From NCBI GenBank assembly GCA_937893795.1, contig CALCTH010000530.1, forward strand, positions 1 through 38,811: a stretch of 38,811 bases of DNA. The letters are read 5' to 3'. This document shows positions 3,007 through 21,722 of the stretch, piece by piece (positions within the stretch are counted from its first letter, which is position 1; each line of letters begins with the position of its first letter). This DNA is from an uncultured Myxococcales bacterium (lineage in GTDB: Bacteria; Myxococcota_A; Polyangia; Polyangiales; Houyiibacteriaceae). Below the pieces are notes generated by a model. The model saw only the letters and a list, made by a program, of their open reading frames with translations, was not told the origin of the DNA and made no database searches. The position numbers were made by a program, and so were the translations under genes.

Positions 3007-3243
3007 GTGAACGTGATCGGATTCGCGGTCGTGGCCGCTCTGGTCGCCCTGGCCTACCGCGCGTGGCGCGTGAAACGGGAGGCGTCCCCGGCGGGCCTCT
3101 GGAAGCAGCTCCTTCGCCTGACCCACGACCGGAAGGTCGCCGAGCGGCTCGTGGCCGCCGAGCAGAAGCGCGCCCCCGTGGTCAGCGAGGCGGTGGCGCT
3201 CCGCCGCGCCATCCGGCGGCTGGAAGCGGACCGGCGCCGCTAG
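3007..3243 (+). CDS. small single-TM hypothetical protein
   Basis: GTG start; VNVIGFAVVAALVALAYRAWRVKRE membrane segment then basic helical tail. Confidence 0.55.
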   Translation: MNVIGFAVVAALVALAYRAWRVKREASPAGLWKQLLRLTHDRKVAERLVAAEQKRAPVVSEAVALRRAIRRLEADRRR

Positions 3244-3273
3244 CCGCGCCAAGCGACTACCTGGCCCCGCCCC

Positions 3274-3876
3274 TCACCAGGCCACGACCTCGATCTCCGG
3301 CCACAGAGCCCTCCAGCGCTCCGTCTTGCGCCGGTAGGTCGCTTCGGAGGCGAGGGCGCGGTTCGGGCGGACGCGGAGCGCGAAGAGGTCCTCGAGACCA
3401 AAGGGCGCGTTGACGTTGCCGTCCGGCGCGAGGGCGATGGCCGTCGTGGTCGTGGGCCAGTGGTGCATCGCATCGAGGACGGAGGTGAAGGGGCGGACGG
3501 CGTAGCCGAAATGCGCCTCGTACCACTCGTGCACGCGCGCCTGGTTCACGACCTCGATGGGCCAGGGGAAGCGTGGGCCAAGGAGCGTCTCGAGGCGGGC
3601 GCGGGCCTCCTCTTCCGCGTGCGGGTTCTCGGCGTCGAAGTAGACGACGTCGAGGTCGGCGATCCCATGATGCGCGTCGCGCCCCGTGAGCGCGTTCCAT
3701 ACGGTGCCCACCACGGCGCCCGCAGCGACGGCGCCCGCCGGGAGGCCCAGCGTGGCGAGCGCGCCAAGCGCCCGGTCCAGGGCCGGAGAGCCTCGAACGA
3801 TACGGAGAAGCTCGCTGGCGCGGGCGTCGCCCATCGCCGTGGGGTCCGGCCTCACTCGAAGCGGATCCGGCTCCAT
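3274..3876 (-). CDS. nucleotidyltransferase family protein (DUF925/NTP_transf_6-like)
   Basis: 200 aa; GAVVGTVWNALTGRDAHHGIADLDVVYFDAE, IEVVNQARVHEWYEAHFGY. Confidence 0.8.
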   Translation of the reverse strand: MEPDPLRVRPDPTAMGDARASELLRIVRGSPALDRALGALATLGLPAGAVAAGAVVGTVWNALTGRDAHHGIADLDVVYFDAENPHAEEEARARLETLLGPRFPWPIEVVNQARVHEWYEAHFGYAVRPFTSVLDAMHHWPTTTTAIALAPDGNVNAPFGLEDLFALRVRPNRALASEATYRRKTERWRALWPEIEVVAW

Positions 3877-4006
3877 GACGGCATCCTAGCCCCACTTCGA
3901 CATGCCGGTCGGTGGTTGCGTCGAGGCGCCGGCCGCCTTTGGTACCTTCCGAGGCCCGGCGGGTCGGGGCGGGAGGGCTTCCTGCGCGCCGCCGGTGGAG
4001 GCCCGC

Positions 4007-5536
4007 ATGAAGATCCCGCTGACCGTCGCCGACTACTTCCGCCGCGCCGCGCAGGTCCATGGACCGCGCACCGCCGTCGTGGACGAGCCGATGGACGACG
4101 GCCTGGGGGAGCTCAGCTGGTCCCGCTTCGACGCCATGGCGCGCGGTCAGGCGGCGCGCCGCGACGCGCTGGGCTTCGCGCCCGGCGACCGGGTGGCGAT
4201 GGTCTCGCAGAACGCGGCGCGGCTGCTCGTCTCGCTCCACGGCGTGTGCAGCTGGGGACGGGTCTTCGTGCCCATCAACTTCCGCCTGAACGCGGACGAG
4301 ATCCGCTACATCGTCCGGCACTCCGGCGCGCGCATGCTCCTCTTCGACAAGTCGCTGCGCACGGAGGTCGAGGGCCTGGACGTCGAGCACAAGATCCAGC
4401 TGGGCCTCGCCACGGACGAGCGCGTCTTCGGCGGTGAAGGCGACCCGCAGCCCTGGGCCGGCGATGAGGACGCGACGGCGACCATCAACTACACCTCGGG
4501 CACGACGGCCCAGCCCAAGGGCGTGCAGCTCACGCACCGCAACCTTTGGCTCAACGCCGCCATCTTCGGGCTCCACGCCGGCGTGAGCGAGCGCGACGCC
4601 TACCTGCACACGCTGCCCATGTTCCACTGCAACGGCTGGGGCATGCCCTTCGTGCTCGCCGGCATGGGCGCCAAGCAGGTCGTGCTCCGCGCCGTCGACG
4701 GCGCCGAAATCCTCCGGCGCATCGAGGCCCACGGCATCACGCTCATGTGCGGCGCCCCGGCGGTGCTCGCGCGCGTGCTGGATGCCGCCAAGGCCTGGGA
4801 CGGCCCCATCCCCGGTGCGGGCAAGGTGCGCTTCGTGACCGCCGGCGCGCCGCCGCCGACCCGTACCATCGAGCGCGTCGAGACCGAGCTGGGGTGGGAG
4901 CTCATGCAGATCTACGGGCTCACGGAGACCGCGCCGCTCCTCACCATCAACCGCGTGCGCCCGGAGGACGACGCGCTCACCCCGGCCGAGCGCGCCGCGC
5001 GGCTCTCCCGGGCCGGCGCGCCCGCCATCGGCGTCGAGCTGAAGATCAGCGACGAGGGCGAGGTTCTCGCCCGCTCCAACCACGTGCTCGAGGGCTACTG
5101 GGAGCGCCCGGACGCGAGCGCCGAGGCGCTCCGGGACGGCTGGTTCCACACCGGCGACGGCGGGCGCCTCGACGACGAGTGTCACGTCACCATCACGGAC
5201 CGAAAGAAGGACGTGATCATCACCGGCGGCGAGAACGTGTCATCCGTGGAGGTCGAGGACGTGCTCTTCAGCCACCCGGCGGTCGCCGAGGCGGCGGTCA
5301 TCGGCGTGCCCGACGCGAAGTGGGGCGAGATGGTCAAGGCGCTGGTCGTGCTCGCGCCGGACGCCGAGGCCAGCGAGGCGGACCTCATCCACCACTGCCG
5401 GCAGAAGCTCGCCCACTACAAATGCCCGAAGTCCATCGAGTTCCGGGCGGTGCTCGCGCGGACGGCGACGGGCAAGCTCCAGAAGTACAAGCTCCGTGCG
5501 CCCTACTGGGAGGGCATGGACAAGCAGGTCAACTGA
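4007..5536 (+). CDS. AMP-binding acyl-CoA synthetase
   Basis: ATG at 4007 (MKIPLTVADYFRRA); AMP-binding motif YTSGTTAQPKGVQLTHRN, GDGGRLDDECHVTITDRKKDVIITGGENVSS. Confidence 0.93.
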   Translation: MKIPLTVADYFRRAAQVHGPRTAVVDEPMDDGLGELSWSRFDAMARGQAARRDALGFAPGDRVAMVSQNAARLLVSLHGVCSWGRVFVPINFRLNADEIRYIVRHSGARMLLFDKSLRTEVEGLDVEHKIQLGLATDERVFGGEGDPQPWAGDEDATATINYTSGTTAQPKGVQLTHRNLWLNAAIFGLHAGVSERDAYLHTLPMFHCNGWGMPFVLAGMGAKQVVLRAVDGAEILRRIEAHGITLMCGAPAVLARVLDAAKAWDGPIPGAGKVRFVTAGAPPPTRTIERVETELGWELMQIYGLTETAPLLTINRVRPEDDALTPAERAARLSRAGAPAIGVELKISDEGEVLARSNHVLEGYWERPDASAEALRDGWFHTGDGGRLDDECHVTITDRKKDVIITGGENVSSVEVEDVLFSHPAVAEAAVIGVPDAKWGEMVKALVVLAPDAEASEADLIHHCRQKLAHYKCPKSIEFRAVLARTATGKLQKYKLRAPYWEGMDKQVN

Positions 5537-5542
5537 GGCCCC

Positions 5543-6019
5543 TCAGGCCGTCGCGGCCAGGCGGCGCTGCAGGCGTCCGATCCACACCGCGAGCTCCTCG
5601 TCGAACTCCGCGGCCGTGCTCGGAAAGCGCAGGCCGGACGACGGGATGGCGATGCTCGCCGTCCGCGCCGTCATGCGCAGGATCTGGTTCTCGGTGAGCA
5701 TCATGAAGCGGTTGACCGCGGCGCGGTGCGTCTTGAACCAGTCGACGAAGTGAAGGCCCACCGTGGTCCCGTAGTCGAGGATGCCCTCGAAGGACCACGC
5801 GATGTAGATTCGGCGCCCGCGGCGCCCGTACTCGTCGGCCACGATCTGGGACATCCTCTCCGTCGCCCAGCGGGCTCCCTCGATGGTCACGTGCCCCTGG
5901 GCATGGAGCAGGTAGATGCGCTCCTGGAGGCGCCAGGACGACCCCTGCGACGCGCCGTAGTCCACCTCGGCGTGAGGCTGGCCGTGTCTCTCGAGGAGCT
6001 CTGCGAGGCGGTCACCCAT
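5543..6019 (-). CDS. hypothetical protein, possibly STAS/SpoIIAA-like
   Basis: Likely start MGDRLAELL at 6019, 158 aa; HVTIEGARWATERMSQ...IAWSFEGILDYGTTVGLHFVDWFKTHR reminiscent of STAS-like folds. Confidence 0.6.
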   Translation of the reverse strand: MGDRLAELLERHGQPHAEVDYGASQGSSWRLQERIYLLHAQGHVTIEGARWATERMSQIVADEYGRRGRRIYIAWSFEGILDYGTTVGLHFVDWFKTHRAAVNRFMMLTENQILRMTARTASIAIPSSGLRFPSTAAEFDEELAVWIGRLQRRLAATA

Positions 6020-6110
6020 GGCCTCCTGGGGAAATCGACGCCCGCACCCCGGAGTGAAGGGGCGAAGGGGTAGGCATACGGCGACGCGGTCGAGCTGGTA
6101 CACCGGGGCC

Positions 6111-7811: not shown

Positions 7812-9755
<1,944 letters not shown>

Positions 9756-9783
9756 AGGGCTGGGGCGGCGTGCGGAACGACGA

Positions 9784-9814
9784 CGGGCGGACCCCCGCGT
9801 GGGGAGCCCGCCCG
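9784..9814. terminator. GC-rich hairpin between the hybrid kinase and tRNA
   Basis: CGGGCGG-ac-CCCC-gcgt-GGGG-ag-CCCGCCCG inverted repeat downstream of the stop at 9755; no clear U-tract. Confidence 0.5.
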
Positions 9815-9847
9815 CATCGACCCTGAGTGGCGGCCGCTGAGGCCGGG

Positions 9848-9921
9848 TGCCGATGGCTGGAGTCGAACCAGCGACCTAGCGCGTATGAAACGCCCGCTCT
9901 AGCCACCTGAGCTACATCGGC
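9848..9921 (-). tRNA. tRNA with CAU anticodon (elongator Met, or Ile2)
   Basis: Cloverleaf on minus strand: GCCGATG TA GCTC...GAGC G GGCGT TTCATAC GCGCT AGGTC GCTGG TTCGACT CCAGC CATCGGC A; anticodon CAT; 1-72 pair is G-C so not an initiator; no encoded CCA. Confidence 0.93.
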
Positions 9922-10038: not shown

Positions 10039-10341
10039 ATGCGACGCGCGCTGACCCTCCTCGTGTTCCTCGGCCTCGCGGTCCCCGCGGCCGCCCAGGA
10101 CATGGGCGAGGACGCCGGCATGTCCGATGGCGGCATGTCCGACGGCGGCATGTCCGACGGCGGCGCGCCGGATGGCGGAGCCGGTGACGCCGGCACGGAC
10201 GCCGGCCAGGACATGGGCACCGGCGCGGCCGAGGACGTCGAGTTCTTCCTCGCCAAGGGCGGCGGCTGCGCCGCCGGGGGCGGGTCAGGCGCGCTCGGCG
10301 CGCTGATGCTCGCGGGCCTCCTCGCTCGTCGTCGCCGCTGA
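10039..10341 (+). CDS. 100 aa secreted protein with C-terminal MYXO-CTERM-like anchor
   Basis: Signal peptide MRRALTLLVFLGLAVPAAAQ, Asp/Gly/Met repeats, then GGGCAAGGGSGALGALMLAGLLARRRR. Confidence 0.8.
   Translation: MRRALTLLVFLGLAVPAAAQDMGEDAGMSDGGMSDGGMSDGGAPDGGAGDAGTDAGQDMGTGAAEDVEFFLAKGGGCAAGGGSGALGALMLAGLLARRRR
10120..10179 (+). repeat. 15 bp in-frame tandem repeat ATGTCCGAYGGCGGC (3 near-perfect plus 1 degenerate unit) encoding MSDGG
   Basis: Units at 10120, 10135, 10150 and degenerate 10165. Confidence 0.9.
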
Positions 10342-10372
10342 GCGGGCCTCGGCCGGAGCGTGCGGTGCGCCA

Positions 10373-10430
10373 TCGGATCCCTGAACGGCGACGGGCGCGC
10401 CGGCCCAAGCCGACGCGCCCGCCGCGCGTG
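10373..10430. repeat. Direct repeat copy R1 (58 bp) containing a 12-bp-arm hairpin
   Basis: tcggatccctgaacggcgacgggcgcgccggcccaagccgacgcgcccgccgcgcgtg; 55/58 identical to 12614-12671; arms GGGCGCGCCGGC/GCCGACGCGCCC. Confidence 0.92.
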
Positions 10431-10445
10431 CCTACGGATTCTCCT

Positions 10446-12275
10446 TTACGAGCAGCCTGTGACCTCCATGGCGCCCGAGTCGTTCTCCGGGCCCTGGGGC
10501 AGAGTAGTCCCCAGCGGATCAGTTATCGCGACGGTTCCCTTTCCAACCGGGAAGTGATCCACGCCCGGGGAGGCGCAGCCGATGGTAATGACGTCGGAAA
10601 TGAACTGTAGGGTAGGAGACGTCGGTGGTGACGCGGTCCCCACAAATCCAGGATTCATGCTGAGGTCATCAGGAGCGCCGAGACAGGATGCGTCATCGCT
10701 GACATTCCAATCCGCCGAGGTAGTGCCAAAGCACTGGTTAGTTGCCGTCGTACCGTTGTCTCCTATGGCGCTCGCCATGAGTCGAAGGGACCCAGACCCG
10801 AAGTGACCGACCGCACTTGCCGTCGCTGCTTCGTTGTAGCGGAAGGATGCGCGTTCGACTGTCGTTGTGCCCGACAACGTTGCGATAGCTCCTCCAAAGG
10901 CCTTTGCGTAGTTATTCGAGAAGGATGACAACAGCACGAATCCCGAACCGAACGCGGCAATGGCGCCTCCTGCTGAACCGTCATCGCCCAGTCGATTTCC
11001 GTTTAGGGTTGAGTATTGGACTCGCCACAAGTTCTCTGCGAAGAGAGCACCTCCGTAGTTGCTCGAGGTCGAGGTCATAGTGTTATTCGAGAGATTGGAG
11101 AACTGCACATTTACGATGGTTTGGGAATAGACTGCCCCACCGGCCGAGCTCCCGAAAGCGGTGCCAGCCGCATTGTTTCGTAGGTCAGAAAAAGCTATCG
11201 AGAGCGCCCTTCCCGGTACAGCGGCGGCTCCAGCGGGAGTCTCTTCACTGTAGATTGCGCCTCCATCGGAGCCAGCGGTGTTGCCGATGAACTCGACACC
11301 TTGGTAAAAGTGGTCGAAGCCACTCCCCACGGTTTGTCCGGCGTCAACGGCAAAGACGCCACCGCCATCGGCGCCAGCGCTATTCATCGTGAAGACCGAG
11401 TCGAGAAACTCGACTCCTAGAGCCTTGCTGTAGATACCGCCGCCGTTGGCTGTTGCCGTGCTGTCCCTAATCGTAGAGTCGACACCCTCCACTTTGTATG
11501 TGTTCTCGGCCATGTGGATCGCACCGCCATCGTTCGTCGCCGTACAACTCCGAACCAACGCCGTGTCGAGTAGAAGGCCAGCACCCCCTAGCATCGTTCC
11601 GGGGGGTCGTACGGCGTAGATGCAACCACCGTTCTGCGCCGTGCCGTTTTGCACCGTCATGTTCTCCAGTGTGAGTATGCTGGGCGATACTTCTCCGGTA
11701 TCGGGCGCGGCGAGGAGAGGGAGAATGGCATGGAAGACGCGGTCAGCATTTAGCCCGTCGACGATATGGGCCGTCGGCGAGGTGCCCATGCCGACGATCC
11801 GGACCTGTTCTGTAACGTCCAGATCACCTCGGTCTGCGTTGTCCTCGGCTCCACCTGCGCCATTGAGGACCGTCAGTGAGTATGTTCCTCCACCGGGCGC
11901 GTCCAGCTGGATAGTATCGTGGCCAGGGCAGTTGTTTGCCCACTGCACAGCGGCGCGCAGGGTGCACTCGGCGCTTGGTAGCGTTGACGTACAGGTGGGT
12001 TCAGGAAGATCCCCGCATTCCGCAACGGTTAGCGGAGGTGCCGGTGCGTCCGCCAGAGTGACTACGCGAAACGTCCTGGCACTCGCCGACGAGGGAATCA
12101 GGGAACCAAGGAGAGAGGCCGCCAATAAGGTGGTATAGAGATTAGAGTAGGATGCGGCTCGTTTCAGAGTCAACGATTTCGGGATGAGTGTGAGGTCTAT
12201 GGTCTTGTGATCGTCCATGGTAACATACTGCCAGTGCCGATTTGCGGCCACAAGCTGATCCGTGACAGGCATCAC
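10446..12275 (-). CDS. CSLREX-domain, right-handed parallel beta-helix (POMP-like) repeat protein
   Basis: Signal-like segment LYTTLLAASLLGSLIPSSASA; CSLREX-like AECTLRAAVQWANNCPGHDTI; repeats such as NNAAGTAFGSSAGGAVYS, NGTAQNGGCIYA; true start may be internal (e.g. MDDHKTIDL). Clearly lower GC than neighbours. Confidence 0.85.
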   Translation of the reverse strand: MMPVTDQLVAANRHWQYVTMDDHKTIDLTLIPKSLTLKRAASYSNLYTTLLAASLLGSLIPSSASARTFRVVTLADAPAPPLTVAECGDLPEPTCTSTLPSAECTLRAAVQWANNCPGHDTIQLDAPGGGTYSLTVLNGAGGAEDNADRGDLDVTEQVRIVGMGTSPTAHIVDGLNADRVFHAILPLLAAPDTGEVSPSILTLENMTVQNGTAQNGGCIYAVRPPGTMLGGAGLLLDTALVRSCTATNDGGAIHMAENTYKVEGVDSTIRDSTATANGGGIYSKALGVEFLDSVFTMNSAGADGGGVFAVDAGQTVGSGFDHFYQGVEFIGNTAGSDGGAIYSEETPAGAAAVPGRALSIAFSDLRNNAAGTAFGSSAGGAVYSQTIVNVQFSNLSNNTMTSTSSNYGGALFAENLWRVQYSTLNGNRLGDDGSAGGAIAAFGSGFVLLSSFSNNYAKAFGGAIATLSGTTTVERASFRYNEAATASAVGHFGSGSLRLMASAIGDNGTTATNQCFGTTSADWNVSDDASCLGAPDDLSMNPGFVGTASPPTSPTLQFISDVITIGCASPGVDHFPVGKGTVAITDPLGTTLPQGPENDSGAMEVTGCS

Positions 12276-12613
12276 CTATCATCGGTGACCCGTAGGATGC
12301 GCGAATGCGAAGTTGCGCTTTTTACGCCGTTACCTATACGAAAACGACCAGCCCGCAGGCTGTGAGAATAGCGGATAAGGCTGCCGTCCCGTTCTCACGT
12401 TATCTCGGGCAGCTGAAGCCGCCTTCTTGAGTTCGGGATAGACGAGCCGGAGGAAATGCGGTCGCAGTCGAGTTGATCCCAGACCGTACTTCGTCGACGC
12501 AGCGAAACATGAGGGGCCCTTCTTCGCGCCTACGAGGGTCGAGCGCGACCCGTTGATCACGCGCCTCGTACGCTGGCGAATCCCCCGAGGCACTAAGAGC
12601 AGCAGTCGTTCAG

Positions 12614-12671
12614 TCGGAGCCCTGAACGGCGACGGGCGCGCCGGCCGAAGCCGACGCGCCCGCTGCGCGTG
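12614..12671. repeat. Direct repeat copy R2 (58 bp) containing the same hairpin
   Basis: tcggagccctgaacggcgacgggcgcgccggccgaagccgacgcgcccgctgcgcgtg; 18 bp downstream of the stop of the 12689-15826 gene. Confidence 0.92.
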
Positions 12672-12688
12672 TTCGTGCGGTGCCCTGC

Positions 12689-15600
12689 TCAGGGAGGGGG
12701 TGCCGGCGTCGTGACGGTCATCGTGTAGGCGCCGATGGCGTCCGAGGCGAAGAACGTCGACGTGATGATCACGTATTCGGCACCGGCCGGGATGGTGAGG
12801 CCGTCGATCCCGCTCTGGGCGGCACTGCCCGGCACGTAATCGTCGTTCGACGACACGCAGCCCACGAAGGGATCCGAAGGCACGAAGGTCGTGGCGTCGA
12901 GCACGTGAATGTACCCGTCCTCGCCCGGCGCCCAGTCGACCAGAATGTCCACGTCCACCGACGTAGTGCCGGAGTTCGTGATGTAGTGCTCGTCGTAGAA
13001 GTGGTTCGCAGTTCCGCCAAAGCTCGAGCAGCCGCTGCGGCGGTCCCACTGGGGATCGGTCACGTCGATGCTGCCCGTGAACGACAGTGCGGCGGCGCCG
13101 GCCGCGGTGATTTCATCTGCGCAGAAGTTGCAGCCGTCGCCGGTCACGGTGTTGCCGTCGTCACAGCTCTCGCCGAGCTCGACCATCGAGTTACCGCAGC
13201 TCGAGGTCACGCAGCCCGTGCTTCGGCACACGAAGCCCGACTCCACGAAGCACCCGTCGCAGCCGTCGCCGGTGATCATGTTGCCGTCGTCACAGAACTC
13301 GCCGACGTCGAGCGTTCCGTCGCAGGTGGACGTACAGACGCTCGGCTCACCGGTGCACTCGAAGGGATATTCCTCGACGCAGGTATCGCTACAGCCGTCG
13401 GTGGCCAGGGCATTACCGTCGTCGCATTCCTCGTCGCCTTCGATGATCCCGTCCCCGCAAACGGTGGCTCGGCACGTGCTCGGACCGGTCCCGGTGCAGA
13501 TGAAGCCGGCCTCGACTTCACAGCTGGCGCTGCAACCGTCCGTGGACATCGCGTTGCCGTCGTCGCAGTCCTCGTCCGCTTCGATGACACCGTCCCCGCA
13601 GACGATGGGTGTGAGGTCGATGGTGTACGCCCCGATGGTGGCCGCCGCGCCGAAGGTCGTGGCCACTACGACGTACTCCGTCATCGGCTCCGCAGTGAAG
13701 GTCAGCAGGCTTCCGCCGGTGCCGATGGGGAAGGGGGCGTCGTCATCCGCGATGAGGCAGTTCATCACCGCCATGGTGGGGTCGAAGGGCGCCTCGTAGA
13801 TCACGAGGAAACCGTCGCCGGCCCAGGTCGCCTCTGCCTCGATCGTGATCGCGCTGGCGGTCGGGTTGATGACGTCGAAGGCGTCGTAGTGCAGCCCCGT
13901 GCGCGTGCCGGCCACGCAGCCCTCGTTCGGTCGATCGAAGAGCGGGTCCGTCGCGTCGATGCTGCCGGACAGCGTCAGCGCCGGCCGCACGCTCGGGATG
14001 TCGGTGATGCAGCGGGTGCAACCGTCAGCGTCCACCGTGTTGCCGTCGTCGCAGGCCTCCCCGACGTCGATGGTGCCGTTGCCGCATAGCGGCGCACACA
14101 CGCTAGGCGTACCCGAGCAGCCGAAGCCGTCCTCGATGGTGCAGGTCGCCGAGCAGCCATCCATGTCCATGGCGTTGCCGTCGTCACAGGCCTCGCCCGG
14201 ATCGAGCATGCCGTTGGAGCAGAGCGGCGTGCACACGCTCGGTGAGCCCATGCAACCGAAGCCCCCTTCGACGGTGCAGGTCGCGGAGCAGCCGTCCATG
14301 TCCATCAGGTTGCCGTCGTCGCAGGCTTCGAAGGCGCCCACGGTGCCGTCACCGCAGACCGGGACCTCGCAGGTCACGGCGACGTCGACGCTGGTGGTCG
14401 GGCCGGCAGCGGCGCCGGCCAGGTCGTAGAGGACGTAGCTCCGCGATCCGGCGCGCAGATCCAGGGTCACGAGACCGTCGGCACCCTCACGCTCGTCCGA
14501 GCCGAGGCAGGCGCTCGTGTCGTCGCAGCTGTTGTCGGCCTCCGTGCCTTCGAGCACGAAGAGCTGGTAGTCGTCGGTGGTGCCTGGCGCGGCGGAGGCC
14601 GCGAAGGTCACGCGGACGTCCTCGCTCGGGATGAAGGTGAAGGCCGACTCCGCCGGGGCGTAGCTGCCGGCCGAGTCACAGGCGTTGCCGCTGAAGAACT
14701 CGGTGCCCATCGACGTGTCGAGCGAGAGCGTGCCCGCCGCGCAGTCGACCTCGAGGCGCGCCGCGGGGCAGGGCACGAGCGAGCACATCGCCGGGTCCGT
14801 CGGGTCACAGATGGCGTCCGTCGCCGTGCAGTCCGTGGACGTCTCGAGGAGACAGCCTGCGGCGTCCGGCGCGCAGATGGCCAGCGTGTCGCCACCGCAG
14901 GTCCGGCCGGCGGCCGCGCACTCCGTGAGGTCGCGGCAGGGGTCCGTCGGCGCGACGCCGCAGGAGGCGCTCGCCCCGCCATCGTCACAGAAGCCGAACA
15001 TCACGCCGCCCGCGCAGTCGACCTCGGTCTCCCGGAGGCAGCCGTAGGCGTCGGGCGCGCAGCTGACGAGCGTCGGGCCGTCACAGCTCGTGCCCGCCGT
15101 GGTGCAGAGGTCGTCGCCGGCGCACTCGGCACCGCCGATGCAGGTCGCCGTCGTCGTGTCGTCGCAGGACGCATCGGGGTTGTCGAAGTCCATGCAGGGG
15201 TTGCGCGTCTCGACGAGGCAGCCGAAGGCGTTCGGCGCGCAGACGGTGAGCACGTCGCCCACGCAGAGCGCGCCCTCGGCGGCGCACAGGGTCAGGCCCG
15301 CGCAGGGATCGGCGGGCACCGCACACACGGGCATCTCCCCCCCCGTGTCGCAGATGCCGCCATCGTCGGCCGCACAGTCCGTCATGGTCTCGACGAGACA
15401 GCCGTCGGCGTTCATCTCGCAGACGACCAGCGTGTCGTCGCTGCAGGCCCGGCTCTCGGTGTCGCAGAGCGTCAGCCCGAAGCAGGGGGCGACGGCACAG
15501 AAGTTCGGCGTGGCTTCGTCGTCGCAGAAGCCACCGTCGGCCGCGGCGCAGTCTTCGGTGGTCTCGATGAGGCAGCCATCCGCGTTGGCCTCGCAGGTGA

Positions 15601-15826
15601 CGAGGTCGTCGCCGTCGCAGGCCACGCCTTCGGCGGCGCACTGCTCGATGCCGTCGCATGGGTCGCCCATGTCGCCCATGTCGTCGTCCATGGGGCTGTC
15701 GACCGTGACCATGTCGTCGGTCATGGCGTCCGACATGTCGGCGCCGGTGTCGTCGTCGTCACCGCACGCGGCAACGCCGAGCGCCACCAGGAGTGCGAGC
15801 GCTCGCATCCAATAGTCTGTCTTCAT
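12689..15826 (-). CDS. Lipoprotein with Cys-rich repeats and DUF4215 (Myxococcus cysteine-rich) repeats, 1045 aa
   Basis: MRALALLVALGVAACGDDDD lipobox; many CGDGxxExxExCDDGNxxxxDGCSxxC repeats. Confidence 0.92.
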   Translation of the reverse strand: MKTDYWMRALALLVALGVAACGDDDDTGADMSDAMTDDMVTVDSPMDDDMGDMGDPCDGIEQCAAEGVACDGDDLVTCEANADGCLIETTEDCAAADGGFCDDEATPNFCAVAPCFGLTLCDTESRACSDDTLVVCEMNADGCLVETMTDCAADDGGICDTGGEMPVCAVPADPCAGLTLCAAEGALCVGDVLTVCAPNAFGCLVETRNPCMDFDNPDASCDDTTTATCIGGAECAGDDLCTTAGTSCDGPTLVSCAPDAYGCLRETEVDCAGGVMFGFCDDGGASASCGVAPTDPCRDLTECAAAGRTCGGDTLAICAPDAAGCLLETSTDCTATDAICDPTDPAMCSLVPCPAARLEVDCAAGTLSLDTSMGTEFFSGNACDSAGSYAPAESAFTFIPSEDVRVTFAASAAPGTTDDYQLFVLEGTEADNSCDDTSACLGSDEREGADGLVTLDLRAGSRSYVLYDLAGAAAGPTTSVDVAVTCEVPVCGDGTVGAFEACDDGNLMDMDGCSATCTVEGGFGCMGSPSVCTPLCSNGMLDPGEACDDGNAMDMDGCSATCTIEDGFGCSGTPSVCAPLCGNGTIDVGEACDDGNTVDADGCTRCITDIPSVRPALTLSGSIDATDPLFDRPNEGCVAGTRTGLHYDAFDVINPTASAITIEAEATWAGDGFLVIYEAPFDPTMAVMNCLIADDDAPFPIGTGGSLLTFTAEPMTEYVVVATTFGAAATIGAYTIDLTPIVCGDGVIEADEDCDDGNAMSTDGCSASCEVEAGFICTGTGPSTCRATVCGDGIIEGDEECDDGNALATDGCSDTCVEEYPFECTGEPSVCTSTCDGTLDVGEFCDDGNMITGDGCDGCFVESGFVCRSTGCVTSSCGNSMVELGESCDDGNTVTGDGCNFCADEITAAGAAALSFTGSIDVTDPQWDRRSGCSSFGGTANHFYDEHYITNSGTTSVDVDILVDWAPGEDGYIHVLDATTFVPSDPFVGCVSSNDDYVPGSAAQSGIDGLTIPAGAEYVIITSTFFASDAIGAYTMTVTTPAPPP

Positions 15827-15972: not shown

Positions 15973-17727
15973 TCACATCACGCGCGCCGCCCGACTCACC
16001 GCCGAGTCTCGGTGACGGATCGTGGAGCGACGCCGACGCCAGCCGAGGGCGAGGAGCACCAGGGGCCAGGCCGCCGCGCCCGTGCCCGCGGCGCAGCCCG
16101 AGGAGGCCGGCCGGCCCGTCGGGGCGCCCATGTCGGCGCGCACCACGCCCATGTCCGGGGCGCCCATCTCGGCCGGTCCCATCTCGGGGCCGAGGTCCGG
16201 TCCCATCTCCGCGCCCATGTCCATCGGTCCCATGTCCGGCTCGCTCGCGTCGCGCTCCGGGATGCACGCCCCGTCGCGGCAGAGCTCACCGCGCGGGCAG
16301 CGGACGCCGGCGCAGTTGGCGATGCAGCCGAGGTCCGGGTCGCACACGAAGCCCTCCTCGCAGGTCACGCCGACGCACATGCGCGACACGCAGGCGCCAT
16401 CCACGCACGTTTCGTCGCGCGCGCAGTCGTCGTCGCCGAGGCAGCGGTCGATGCACTCGCCCGCGTCGCACACGCTGCACTCGGGGTCGCAGAAGATATC
16501 CTCGCAGAGGTCGAGGCAGCGGCCCGCGAAGCAGTCCTGTCCGATCGGGCAGCGGATGCCCACGCAGGCGTCCACGCACTCGCCGGCGCTGCAGCGCTGA
16601 CCGCCGGGGCACTCGACGCCTTCGCAGCCGTCCTCGATGCAGCGGCCCTCGTCGTTGCAGCCGAAGCCCTCGGGGCAGCCGCCCTCGAAGCAGACGTCGA
16701 TGCAGGCGCCGCGGTCGCAGACGCTGAGCCCGCTCCCGCAAATGTCCTCGCCCTCGTCGACGGCGCCGTCGCAGTCATCGTCGAGGGCGTTGCAGACCTC
16801 GCTCCCGGCGGCTGCGACGGGCTGGCAGAAGGTGCCGCCGCCGGCGGCTTCGTCGCACTGGATCACGCCGGAGGCGCAGACGCCGAGCTCGCCGGTGTCG
16901 CAGGCATCGCCGGCTTCCGGGCAAAGCACGTCGCCGCTCCGGATCTGGAAGCGCCACACGCCCGCCTCGGGCCGCGGCAGGTTCGAGCCGGTGCAGAGCG
17001 CGTCGGCGATGCCGGGCATGCGGGAGCCCGGGAGCGCCACGAAGTCCGTGAGGTTGCCGGCGTCGAAGCCCGACTGGGCCTGGGTCCCGCCGAAGCCGTT
17101 GGTCCCGCCGGAGGCCTCGCCGGTCTCCCACTCGCAGCGGTTGAAGCGGAACTCCACGTCGAAGTCCGTCGCCCCGTCGCCGCAGGTCGGCAGCGCCGTC
17201 AGCAGCAGCTGAAAGTTCATCCGAAGATCGTTGCGGCAGTTGAAGTAGCCGACGTCGTCCCAGGTGACGATCATCCGCCCGGGCTCGAGGGTCCACCACA
17301 CGGCGTTCCCGAGGTCCGCGTCCGTCGGGCACACGCTCGAGAGGTCCGTCGTGCACTCGGACGTGCCCGGGGGCTGGCGGATGTCCACGTCGGCCCAGTA
17401 GGGCGCGATCATCGGCTGCGACGCGATGGGGAAGGCGTCCGGCGTGAAGGTCCGGAGCGGCCCGCCGAAGGTCAGGTTGCCGTTCGTGTTCACGTAGACC
17501 TGCGTGAACGTGCCGCCGAAGAACTGGAGCCCCGACGGGAAGGCCGGCGTCAGATCGATGGGCAGCGACGAACCGTCGTCGTTGCGGAAGAGGCACTCGC
17601 TGCCGTAGCCGCGGGGGCCACCGAGCGTGGTCAGGAGCGGCGCCTGCGCGCTGGCATGGGCGACGCATGCGAGGGTCGCGGCGGCGGCGGCGACGGCGAG
17701 CGCGCGGGGAAGGGTGGTGGCGTTCAT
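15973..17727 (-). CDS. Secreted nidogen-like-domain protein with MopE-like motif, Cys-rich repeats and MYXO-CTERM anchor
   Basis: Signal peptide; NIDO-like VNTNGNLTFGGPLRTFTPDAFPIASQPMIAPYWADVDIR; VCNALDDDCDGAVDEGE; multiple CxxGxxCxxGxCxDxC; SSGCAAGTGAAAWPLVLLALGWRRRR. Confidence 0.9.
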   Translation of the reverse strand: MNATTLPRALAVAAAAATLACVAHASAQAPLLTTLGGPRGYGSECLFRNDDGSSLPIDLTPAFPSGLQFFGGTFTQVYVNTNGNLTFGGPLRTFTPDAFPIASQPMIAPYWADVDIRQPPGTSECTTDLSSVCPTDADLGNAVWWTLEPGRMIVTWDDVGYFNCRNDLRMNFQLLLTALPTCGDGATDFDVEFRFNRCEWETGEASGGTNGFGGTQAQSGFDAGNLTDFVALPGSRMPGIADALCTGSNLPRPEAGVWRFQIRSGDVLCPEAGDACDTGELGVCASGVIQCDEAAGGGTFCQPVAAAGSEVCNALDDDCDGAVDEGEDICGSGLSVCDRGACIDVCFEGGCPEGFGCNDEGRCIEDGCEGVECPGGQRCSAGECVDACVGIRCPIGQDCFAGRCLDLCEDIFCDPECSVCDAGECIDRCLGDDDCARDETCVDGACVSRMCVGVTCEEGFVCDPDLGCIANCAGVRCPRGELCRDGACIPERDASEPDMGPMDMGAEMGPDLGPEMGPAEMGAPDMGVVRADMGAPTGRPASSGCAAGTGAAAWPLVLLALGWRRRRSTIRHRDSAVSRAARVM

Positions 17728-20700
17728 TGGATGATCACGTCGTCGAGGCCGAAGCCGTCTTCTTCGATGGAGGCCGCGTTGCTCACCATCGCGAAGCGCA
17801 CGCGCACGTCGTCCTGGCCGGCGGCGCCGGTGAGCGTATTCGAAGCGCGGGCCCAGGCGTTCGGGAAGCCGCTCAGGCCGTCCCAGAAGTCACCGCTCAG
17901 GTCGTTGTACCAGTTGGTGCCCGTCCCGAAGGCGCCGAGCTTGGTCCAGGTGCTGCCGCCGTCCGTGCTGATCTCGACGAAGACGTGGTCGTTCGTCGCC
18001 TCGAGCTCGAAGAGGCGCGAGAAGCTGATCTCCGGGTCCGCGGTGAAGGCCGAGGTGTCGAAGCAGGGGCTCGTGAGGAACGAGCTCTGGTCCGGCTGGT
18101 AGTCGGCGCCCGGCGCCGTGACGAAGGCCCGGCTGCCGGAGTCGGCGCTCCGGATGAAGCTGCCGCCCGTCGTCGGCACGACGCCCCAGGCCCAATCGGC
18201 GTTCGTGCCGCTCACGAGCCAGCCGCCGGGATTGGTCTCGAAGTCCTCGAGGTAGCGCGTCGTCGTCGTGATCACGACGGGCGCGCGGATGGAGAGCGAG
18301 TCCGCGTCGTTCGAGGCATTCGTGTCGCCGGCCGCCGAGACGAAGGCACCGAGCGTCGTCGTGGCGGAGGTCGTCGTCCGGAAGGTCTCCCCCGGGTCGA
18401 GGCGCGTCATGACGGTTCGCACCGAGGGGACGCCGTCGACGAGCGTGGTGAGATCGAAGCGGAGCGACTCCGCCGTGCCGACGTTGGTGACCTGGATCTC
18501 CCCGGCGTTGCAGGCCGTCGCGCTCTCCACGATGGTCGTCGCGAGGTCCGGCTGGGGCGCTGCCACGCGCACGTCGTCGATGGCGAAGCCCTCTTCCGTG
18601 ACGGATCCGTCCGATGAGAAGCGGAAGCGGAGCCGGACGTCGGCGAAGCCGTCCGTGCCCGTGAGCTGGGTCGAGACGGCCGTCCAGCCGCCGTTGCCCC
18701 CGTCCCACCACTGGTTGGCCGTGTCGTTGTACCAGCCCTCGGCGCCCGGGGCGGCGAGCACCTTCGTGTAGGTCCTGCCGCCGTCCGTGCTCACTTCGAC
18801 GAAGCCCTCGTCGCAGCACGATTCGGTCACGTACCAGAGGTTGAAGCTCAGGATCGGGTCGCCTCCGGCGCCGCGCAGATCCATGGGCGGCGACTCGATG
18901 AAGGAGCTCTCGGAGTCGTTGTAGTCGCCCGTCAGGTTCGTGACGAAGGCGTTCGTTCCGTTGGCCGCGCGATCGATGACCGCGCCGGCCGGAGCGCCGC
19001 GGGCCCAGCTCGACGAGGTGCCGCCGATGGTGAAGCCGCCGGCGTCGGCCTCGAAGTCGACGTCGAGGAAGGCGGCCGGCGTCGTGCAGACCATCATGTC
19101 GCACATGCCCGACGCGCAGATCGCCGGGCCGGTGCAGGCCGTCCCGGAGGGGCAAAGGCCGCAGCCGCCACCGGCGCAGTCGATGGCCATCTCGCCGCCG
19201 TTCTGGATGCCGTCCTCGCAGCTCGTGCACGTGCCCATCTCGCAGCGGCCCGAGTCGCACTGCGCCGGCAGGGTGCACGTGAGCCCGTCGGCGCAGGGGC
19301 TGCAGTCGCCGCCGCAGTCGACGTCGCCCTCGCCCGCGTCGAGCACGCCGTTGGTGCAGGTGTCCTCGAAGACGCGCACGTCGTCGAAGGCCACGCCCTC
19401 GTCGGTCACGCTCCCGTCCGAGTCGAAGAAGAGCCGCAGGCGTACGTCCGACGATCCGGCGGCGCCGACCAGCGTGTTTCGGAGCAGGCGCCAGCCCCCC
19501 GAGCTACCGCGCCAGTCCGCGTCGCCGAACGCGCGCTCCGGGTACCAGTCGGGGGCGTCGCTCGAGCCCACCGTGGTGAAGGCGCCGCCGCCGAGGCTCA
19601 TCTCGAGGCGCATGCCGTCGCAACAGTCTTCCGTCTCGTAGAAGACGGCGAGCTCGATGAGCGGGTCCCCGACGGCGCCGCTCAGGTCGATGCGCGGCGA
19701 CTCCACGAAGGAGGCTTCGTTGTCGTCGTAGTCGCCGCTGAGGTTCGTGACCCAGACGCTCGTGCCGGTGAAGCCGCCGGTGAGCGTGGCCGTCGTCGGC
19801 GTCCCATAGGCCCACGAGCTGCCCGGCCCGCCAGAGGTCCAGCCACCGTCGCCGGCCCCGAAGTCCTCCTCGTAGAAGGTCGACGCGCCTTCGCAGATTC
19901 CGGCGGTGCAGGTGAGCGAGATGCAGTCGCTCGGCGCGGCGCACATGTCGCCACCGGCGCAGGGCCGGCAGTCGGCCCCGCCGCAGTCCACGTCGGACTC
20001 GGTCCCGTTCCGGACGCCGTCCTCGCAGCTCGTGCAGCTGCCGCCCTCGCAGCGGCCGGAGAGGCAGTCCTCGGGGAGCGTGCAGGCCGTGCCGTCGGGA
20101 CAGCCCGGGCAGTCCGTGCCGCCACAGTCCACGCCGACCGCGCCGGGGTCCATCATGCCGTTGAGACAGAGCGCGCTCAGGCAGAAGCCGTCCACGCAAT
20201 CTCCGCTCAGGCAGTCGCTGACGGAGACGCAGCGGAGGCCGAGGGCGCAGGGGGCGCAGTCGCCGCCGCCGCAGTCGAGGTCGGTCTCGGTGAAGTTCAC
20301 CTCGCCGTCGAAGCAGTGCTCCGCGACGCAGAAGTCGTCCACGCAGCGGCCCATGGCGCAGTCCGTCATGGTGACGCAGCCCTCGCCGAGCCCGCAGCCC
20401 GGGCAGGTGGGGCCGCCGCAGTCCGTGCCGGTCTCATCGCCGTTGGAGATCCCATCGCGGCAGGTCGGGCTCTGACAGACGCCGCCGATGCACACGAGGC
20501 TGATGCAGTCGGGGCTGATGTCGCAGCGGAGCGTGTCGGCGCAGCGGGCCTCGCAGGTCTCGCCGCCGCAGTCGACGTCGGTCTCGTCGCCGCTGCGGAC
20601 GCCGTCGAAGCAGGGGTCCGGCGGACCGAGGTCCGGCATGTCTGGGCCCATGTCCGGCATGTCGGGCCCCAAGTCGGCCATGTCCGGGCCCAGGTCGGGC

Positions 20701-20867
20701 AGCGCGATCATGTCGGGCCCCGCGTCGCCCATGTCCGGGCCGGCGTCCGTGGGACCACCGTCCACGTCGACGATCATGTCGACGCCGAGGTCGTCGGCCG
20801 GGCGCACGTCGGTCTCACCACAGGCCGCCAGGAGCGCCAGCGCACAGGTCACGTAAGCAAGTCTCAT
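17724..20867 (-). CDS. Large lipoprotein (1047 aa) with CxDGxxNGxETDVDCGG Cys repeats and three MAM/jelly-roll-like modules
   Basis: MRLAYVTCALALLAACGETD lipobox start at 20867; about 7 Cys repeats; three homologous blocks ending in EEGFAIDDVRV/DEGVAFDDVRV/EDGFGLDDVII. Confidence 0.9.
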   Translation of the reverse strand: MRLAYVTCALALLAACGETDVRPADDLGVDMIVDVDGGPTDAGPDMGDAGPDMIALPDLGPDMADLGPDMPDMGPDMPDLGPPDPCFDGVRSGDETDVDCGGETCEARCADTLRCDISPDCISLVCIGGVCQSPTCRDGISNGDETGTDCGGPTCPGCGLGEGCVTMTDCAMGRCVDDFCVAEHCFDGEVNFTETDLDCGGGDCAPCALGLRCVSVSDCLSGDCVDGFCLSALCLNGMMDPGAVGVDCGGTDCPGCPDGTACTLPEDCLSGRCEGGSCTSCEDGVRNGTESDVDCGGADCRPCAGGDMCAAPSDCISLTCTAGICEGASTFYEEDFGAGDGGWTSGGPGSSWAYGTPTTATLTGGFTGTSVWVTNLSGDYDDNEASFVESPRIDLSGAVGDPLIELAVFYETEDCCDGMRLEMSLGGGAFTTVGSSDAPDWYPERAFGDADWRGSSGGWRLLRNTLVGAAGSSDVRLRLFFDSDGSVTDEGVAFDDVRVFEDTCTNGVLDAGEGDVDCGGDCSPCADGLTCTLPAQCDSGRCEMGTCTSCEDGIQNGGEMAIDCAGGGCGLCPSGTACTGPAICASGMCDMMVCTTPAAFLDVDFEADAGGFTIGGTSSSWARGAPAGAVIDRAANGTNAFVTNLTGDYNDSESSFIESPPMDLRGAGGDPILSFNLWYVTESCCDEGFVEVSTDGGRTYTKVLAAPGAEGWYNDTANQWWDGGNGGWTAVSTQLTGTDGFADVRLRFRFSSDGSVTEEGFAIDDVRVAAPQPDLATTIVESATACNAGEIQVTNVGTAESLRFDLTTLVDGVPSVRTVMTRLDPGETFRTTTSATTTLGAFVSAAGDTNASNDADSLSIRAPVVITTTTRYLEDFETNPGGWLVSGTNADWAWGVVPTTGGSFIRSADSGSRAFVTAPGADYQPDQSSFLTSPCFDTSAFTADPEISFSRLFELEATNDHVFVEISTDGGSTWTKLGAFGTGTNWYNDLSGDFWDGLSGFPNAWARASNTLTGAAGQDDVRVRFAMVSNAASIEEDGFGLDDVIIQ

Positions 20868-20956
20868 CGTCGTCGGCCTCCGGCCGTCGCCGAGCTCGCG
20901 CCCGGCACAACTCTCCGTATCACGAGGAGCCTGAGGCGGCTCACACGGCTCAGTTC

Positions 20957-21236
20957 TGATTGGCGGATGGACTGGCTTAGCCGGGCCCGGAGCGAATTCG
21001 CTGAGGAGGGCGGTCTTCTTTCCGTGGGCTCCCCAACCCACGGCGGTGCTGATTGGCGGATGGACCGGCTTCGCCGCGCCCAACCCTCGGTGGTGCTGAT
21101 TGGCGGAGGGACCGGCTTCGCCGGGCTCGGAGCGCTTTCGCTGGGGAGGGCGGTCTTGCCGTGGGCTCCCCAACCCACGGTGGTGCTGATTGGCGGATGG
21201 ACCGGCTTTGGCGGATGGACCCGCTCAGCCCGGGAC
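20957..21236. repeat. Composite structured repeat array (units ~93, 47, 90 and ~50 bp)
   Basis: TGATTGGCGGAKGGACYGGCTTNGCC starts at 20957, 21050, 21097, 21187; GAGGGCGGTCTT...CCGTGGGCTCCCCAACCCACGG in units 1 and 3. Confidence 0.93.
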
Positions 21237-21722
21237 GGACGCGAGGGTCTCGACGATGCGGACCCCTACCGGGTCCACCCAGAAGGCGAAGCGGCCGTCG
21301 TCCGGCGAGCCGTCGATCACGCATGCCGAGCCCGTCCGGAAGCCCGGCACCCGGTCGACGGCGAGGAGCTGACCGGCCAGCAGCCGCACGCGTGGCTCGT
21401 GGCTCACGAGCAGCACCTGCGCGTTCTTCGGCAGCTCGTCCAGCACCGAGAGCGCCTGCGCCGTCGTCCCCCGCTCCGGACCCAGGGCCGTGACGGCCGG
21501 AAGTGAGCCGCGGTAGGCGAGCGCGCTCGAGAGAATCTCTGCCGTCTGCACGGCCCGAACCAACGGGCTCGAGAACACGTGCGTGGGGCGAAGCCGCTCG
21601 CTCAGGAGCGTCCCGACGCGCTCCGCCCGCGCCCGGCCCTCGGCCGTGAGCCAGCGCGCGTCGTCACTCGCGGCCTCGTAGAGGTCGACGGCGGTGCTGT
21701 GGCGGACGATGCAGATGCGCAT
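21225..21722 (-). CDS. sixA: SixA-like histidine phosphatase
   Basis: 165 aa; MRICIVRHSTAVD RHG motif; FSSPLVRAVQTAEIL; LLVSHEPRVRLLAGQLL. Confidence 0.88.
   Translation of the reverse strand: MRICIVRHSTAVDLYEAASDDARWLTAEGRARAERVGTLLSERLRPTHVFSSPLVRAVQTAEILSSALAYRGSLPAVTALGPERGTTAQALSVLDELPKNAQVLLVSHEPRVRLLAGQLLAVDRVPGFRTGSACVIDGSPDDGRFAFWVDPVGVRIVETLASVPG

Follow-up and report, generated by a model that had tools for sequence, protein, structure and literature searches.

The window analysed is the entire contig C530 (38,811 bp) of a draft genome of 6.4 Mb that is 92% complete. Among the proteins encoded on it are myxo_disulf_rpt, EspA-like kinase and MYXO-CTERM-like tail types, which point to a myxobacterium, possibly one of the Polyangiales. 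The locus considered here lies between a small plus-strand gene, for which no family match was obtained, and a long minus-strand gene for a DUF4215/myxo_disulf_rpt protein. Between these two is found a second minus-strand gene, of low GC content, preceded by a non-coding stretch, both enclosed by two copies of a 58-bp direct repeat that we have called R58a and R58b (Table 1). Elsewhere on the contig, a histidine kinase gene and a tRNA-Met on the opposite strand (7812-9921) form a pair conserved in five relatives, and four copies of a repeat of about 60 nt around GTGCTGATTGGCGGATGGACCGGCTTCGCCG are located at 20924-21239, covering the start of the ORF 17724-21173 and sequence upstream of it.

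Table 1. Features of the repeat-bounded locus, with positions in the window.
Feature	Position	Strand	Basis or remark
Small secreted protein with MYXO-CTERM-like tail; convergent, its stop facing R58a	10040..10341	+	Start read from the sequence (ORF scan: 9922, GTG)
Outer 10-bp direct repeat CGTGCGGTGC, left copy; possible insertion scar	10359..10368	+	Suggestive only
R58a, terminator-like hairpin after the stop of the low-GC gene, between convergent genes	10373..10430	-	Minus-strand RNA fold -48.7 kcal/mol, z -3.2
Low-GC gene, secreted POMP/Chlam_PMP-repeat (beta-helix type) protein	10446..12275	-	Pfam PF02415, NCBIfam TIGR01376; GC3 0.64
Low-GC non-coding leader/spacer, putative part of the inserted stretch	12222..12613	.	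58.7% GC; no Pfam match
R58b, terminator-like hairpin after the stop of the DUF4215/myxo_disulf_rpt gene	12614..12671	-	Fold z -4.1; hairpin of another sequence at this place in orthologs from another genus
Outer 10-bp direct repeat CGTGCGGTGC, right copy	12674..12683	+	Suggestive only
DUF4215/myxo_disulf_rpt protein, native composition	12689..15826	-	Profile matches; GC3 0.90

The two copies of R58 are identical at 55 of their 58 positions, have the same orientation and start 2241 bp apart, which reproduces the coordinates of a first-pass annotation of this DNA (55/58, about 2.24 kb). Immediately outside them identity drops to some 30-35%, i.e., to chance level. Within the genome, BLAST finds R58b together with R58a at an E value of 8e-20, so that the pair is not a product of chance, and since the longest exact run common to both copies is only 27 nt, an artefactual assembly join at R58 is unlikely. 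Each copy lies shortly after a minus-strand stop codon, R58a 15 nt 3' of the stop at 10446 and R58b 17 nt 3' of that at 12689, very near the 16-18 bp given before. On the other hand, the earlier statement that the paired arms contain no mismatch has to be corrected. The C/T difference at repeat position 51 is located in the outer paired arm of the minus-strand hairpin, where a G-C pair of copy 1 becomes A.C in copy 2; the 14-bp core stem is unaffected, and the 17-bp stem of copy 1 loses one pair in copy 2. A 7-bp inverted repeat (CGTTCAG/CTGAACG, 12606-12628) spans the inner edge of R58b, is absent at R58a and folds as a small extra hairpin.

As minus-strand RNA, R58 forms a stem of 14-17 bp (17 bp in copy 1, the 14-bp core in copy 2) closed by a UUCG or UUGG loop. 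Only on this strand is the stem fully paired, by means of a G-U pair that corresponds to a mismatch on the plus strand, and the two copies fold at -48.7 and -47.2 kcal/mol, compared with -39.4 when copy 1 is read as the plus strand. Both therefore show, just 3' of a stop, what is expected of an intrinsic terminator, a GC-rich hairpin of high stability on the transcribed strand (z -3.2 and -4.1). A U-rich tract directly 3' of the stem was not found (2 T in the 12 bases scored), for which reason we have classified R58 as terminator-like and not as a proven intrinsic terminator; it is also absent from the list produced by a consensus terminator scan. Its post-stem tail, UCGCCGUUCAG, is a weak U-tract that makes intrinsic termination uncertain, and R58 may instead be an RNA-stability hairpin.

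A way to place R58 among the hairpins of this lineage is to look at where such structures occur. Long hairpins 3' of genes are enriched about 6-fold both in this genome and in a relative: those scoring at least 12 are found at 109 per 100 kb within 70 nt 3' of stops and at 16-19 elsewhere (804 kb of this genome), the values for 400 kb of the relative being 112 and 16-19. Many of the 3' hairpins sampled are, like R58, devoid of a good U-tract. In several genera, a covariance model built from R58 recovers similarly shaped hairpins 11-48 nt 3' of the stops of unrelated genes, together with a minority of weaker matches that fall inside genes. The nearest R58-like hairpin in this genome (contig C592, 81-84% alike) lies 16 nt 3' of a stop, has a T-tract and ends in TTTTCGTTC. 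Rfam gave only sub-threshold matches at R58. Two orthologs of the DUF4215 gene, belonging to another genus, have a strong hairpin of different sequence 15-19 nt 3' of their stop. Because these orthologs carry a hairpin at the position of R58b, this copy looks native and would most likely be the terminator of the DUF4215 gene. The 3' enrichment, the model matches after unrelated genes and the ortholog hairpin at the same place, taken together, make R58 most likely an ordinary, putative terminator or 3'-end hairpin of minus-strand genes. The first-pass annotation had named, as a finding that would speak against its proposals, a unit confined to the role of an ordinary terminator behind core genes unrelated to each other; for hairpins of this type it is largely the case, although the near-identical duplication stays odd.

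The composition of the DNA changes markedly along the locus. The GC content is 0.748 to the left of the repeats, 0.589 between the copies and 0.654-0.69 to the right, leaving an inter-repeat stretch of 2.18 kb with 59% GC within a contig of about 70%. Change points estimated by maximum likelihood lie close to the repeats, on the left at 10420-10600 and on the right, softly, with a best position of 12510. Of the previous claim that the low-GC sequence begins and ends with the repeats, the lower GC and the left edge hold, but the step on the right is gradual since the neighbouring gene has itself only about 65% GC towards its 3' end. The spacer was considered as a decayed transposase and rejected, given the lack of any Pfam match and only weak tblastn matches, to haloarchaeal plasmids (E 0.2-0.5).

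The frame of the low-GC gene is open from the GTG at 12275, with the ATG at 12218 as the likely start, followed by a signal-peptide-like N terminus. Its product exceeds the curated cut-offs of both POMP/Chlam_PMP-repeat profiles (28.3 bits for PF02415, cut-off 20.6; 34 bits for TIGR01376, cut-off 15) and has no match in PDB or PHROGs; a structure model made without alignment is strand-rich, with a mean pLDDT of 40 that is too poor for use on the beta-helix. At 0.64 versus a median of 0.91 (sd 0.05), its GC3 is the second lowest of the 507 genes sampled in this genome. No close relative of the protein appeared in 377 genomes of the phylum or in a protein scan of public genomes. The bacterium's own family yielded no homolog, and the best matches elsewhere in the phylum are partial and 30-39% identical. 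This combination of composition and distribution fits a horizontally gained accessory gene.

Just outside the repeats, 4 nt from R58a and 2 nt from R58b, there are two exact copies of the 10-bp sequence CGTGCGGTGC, found nowhere else in the contig. Such a pair would arise by chance with a probability of about 0.0004 in windows of that size and of 0.0075 when 40-nt windows are taken, values that are post hoc and uncorrected for some 12 comparisons; with this modest significance, the pair may represent a target duplication or insertion scar. It would suit a small composite mobile element, formed by the gene and its two hairpin repeats and inserted whole with a 10-bp target duplication, but we consider such an element decidedly unlikely. 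No third copy of R58 was detected in the genome (allowing 3 mismatches over 25 nt), no near-identical one in 58 relatives, and no exact match when public genomes and viral contigs were scanned for the pattern. None of the proteins scanned from the contig matched a transposase or recombinase, so neither the other copies nor the transposase expected of a transposable element were found, and R58b has the native appearance described above. From the absence of a third copy and of an exact public match it follows that the duplication is particular to this locus and is most simply ascribed to the arrival of the gene.

A conserved hairpin 3' of a gene of foreign composition also recalls an integron-like cassette, in which R58 would be a site-specific recombination site. 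In the same genome, contig C53 contains an island (3044-6054) between a tRNA-Leu(CAA) and a 59-bp copy of part of that tRNA gene (att-like direct repeats), where a tyrosine recombinase (PF00589) stands beside genes of small Cys-rich lipoproteins, each followed by a hairpin, 83-95% alike; further copies are located at C53:861 and, two of them, on C607. The island, which could be cited in favour of a cassette, is the only other case of near-identical 3' hairpins close together in the 0.8 Mb sampled. However, its genes are at least partly paralogous, and the duplication of gene plus terminator thus explains it; what it shows is that this genome has more than one instance of neighbouring genes ending in near-identical hairpins, and it does not count as evidence for hairpins as recombination sites. 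At the locus itself, no mismatch-free RYYYAAC/GTTRRRY pair is present near either R58 copy, in agreement with the first-pass annotation, the stem of copy 1 lacks unpaired extrahelical bases, and the best IntI match in the whole (92% complete) genome reaches 88 bits against a cut-off of 265. Multiple cassettes with an R58 site were not found either, only the two near-identical copies. An integron-like cassette is hence hardly credible here, and the earlier proposal of a cassette mobilised through hairpin-site recombination is not supported on the same grounds, as well as for want of a near-identical copy in relatives and of a recombinase match in the contig.

The same island bears on the possibility that there was no recent insertion at all, the low-GC gene being old in the lineage and the terminators alike through gene conversion or local duplication. 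Its hairpins are more alike than the genes they follow, indicating that terminator copies can stay or become alike. We nevertheless regard an old gene as unlikely, considering a GC3 far under the genome median, the lack of a homolog in the family and the compositional shift near both repeats. Another repeat-bounded region, on contig C260, has an exact 83-bp direct repeat (1-83 and 3634-3716) inside a fragment with a likeness, judged by eye, to an integrase N terminus; the copies bracket low-GC genes (M43-peptidase-like and FGE-sulfatase-like), and others at 91-95% are present on C545 and C594.

The explanation that we favour, and that appears on the whole probable, is an ordinary terminator and a foreign gene inserted at, or with, a copy of that terminator, the duplication having been left by the event. 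R58 would be the usual 3'-end hairpin of minus-strand genes, with R58b native to the DUF4215 gene, and a foreign gene of lower GC, encoding a secreted protein of beta-helix type, would have been inserted between R58b and the convergent small gene. The insertion would have left a second terminator copy after the incoming gene, and the same hairpin would now close both genes. A possible route is a single crossover, or joining assisted by homology, with incoming DNA on which the same terminator was present; alternatively, the terminator may have been duplicated first and the gene inserted between the copies. The direction of the duplication, with R58b as the older copy, is not proven. The second alternative of the first-pass annotation, in which an inserted gene brings along a duplicated terminator-like element at its 3' side, gains support from the strand-specific RNA hairpin, its place after the stop, the similar hairpins after unrelated genes and the foreign-looking gene.

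Whether terminator hairpins act in this lineage as preferred joining sites, with gene-plus-terminator units coming and going in the manner of cassettes but independently of an integron integrase, is a broader matter, and we hold it to be very improbable. A new mobile cassette system at the locus is not supported by anything found. If the terminator were a joining site, the locus would be a concrete case of single foreign genes settling at gene ends without harm to the neighbours, and sister strains should have an empty allele with one R58. No empty allele was recovered by synteny in the five relatives read, in which the gene order beyond the histidine kinase and tRNA-Met differs. Otherwise, the locus would amount to an acquired accessory gene and a duplicated terminator.

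Literature searches yielded nothing directly relevant. Among known systems, R58 resembles a Rho-independent terminator in its GC-rich stem and tetraloop shortly 3' of a stop on the coding strand, and differs from it in the weak U-tract and in having two near-identical copies after unrelated neighbouring genes. With an integron gene cassette and its attC the locus shares a single gene followed by a conserved hairpin and the foreign composition, but it has no core sites, integron integrase or array, and its stem is near-perfect. The insertion of a single, horizontally acquired gene between duplicated sequences is matched by the foreign-looking gene between direct repeats, one of them resident-looking; unlike in single-crossover or homology-assisted insertions, the homologous stretch is here only 58 bp long and is a putative terminator.
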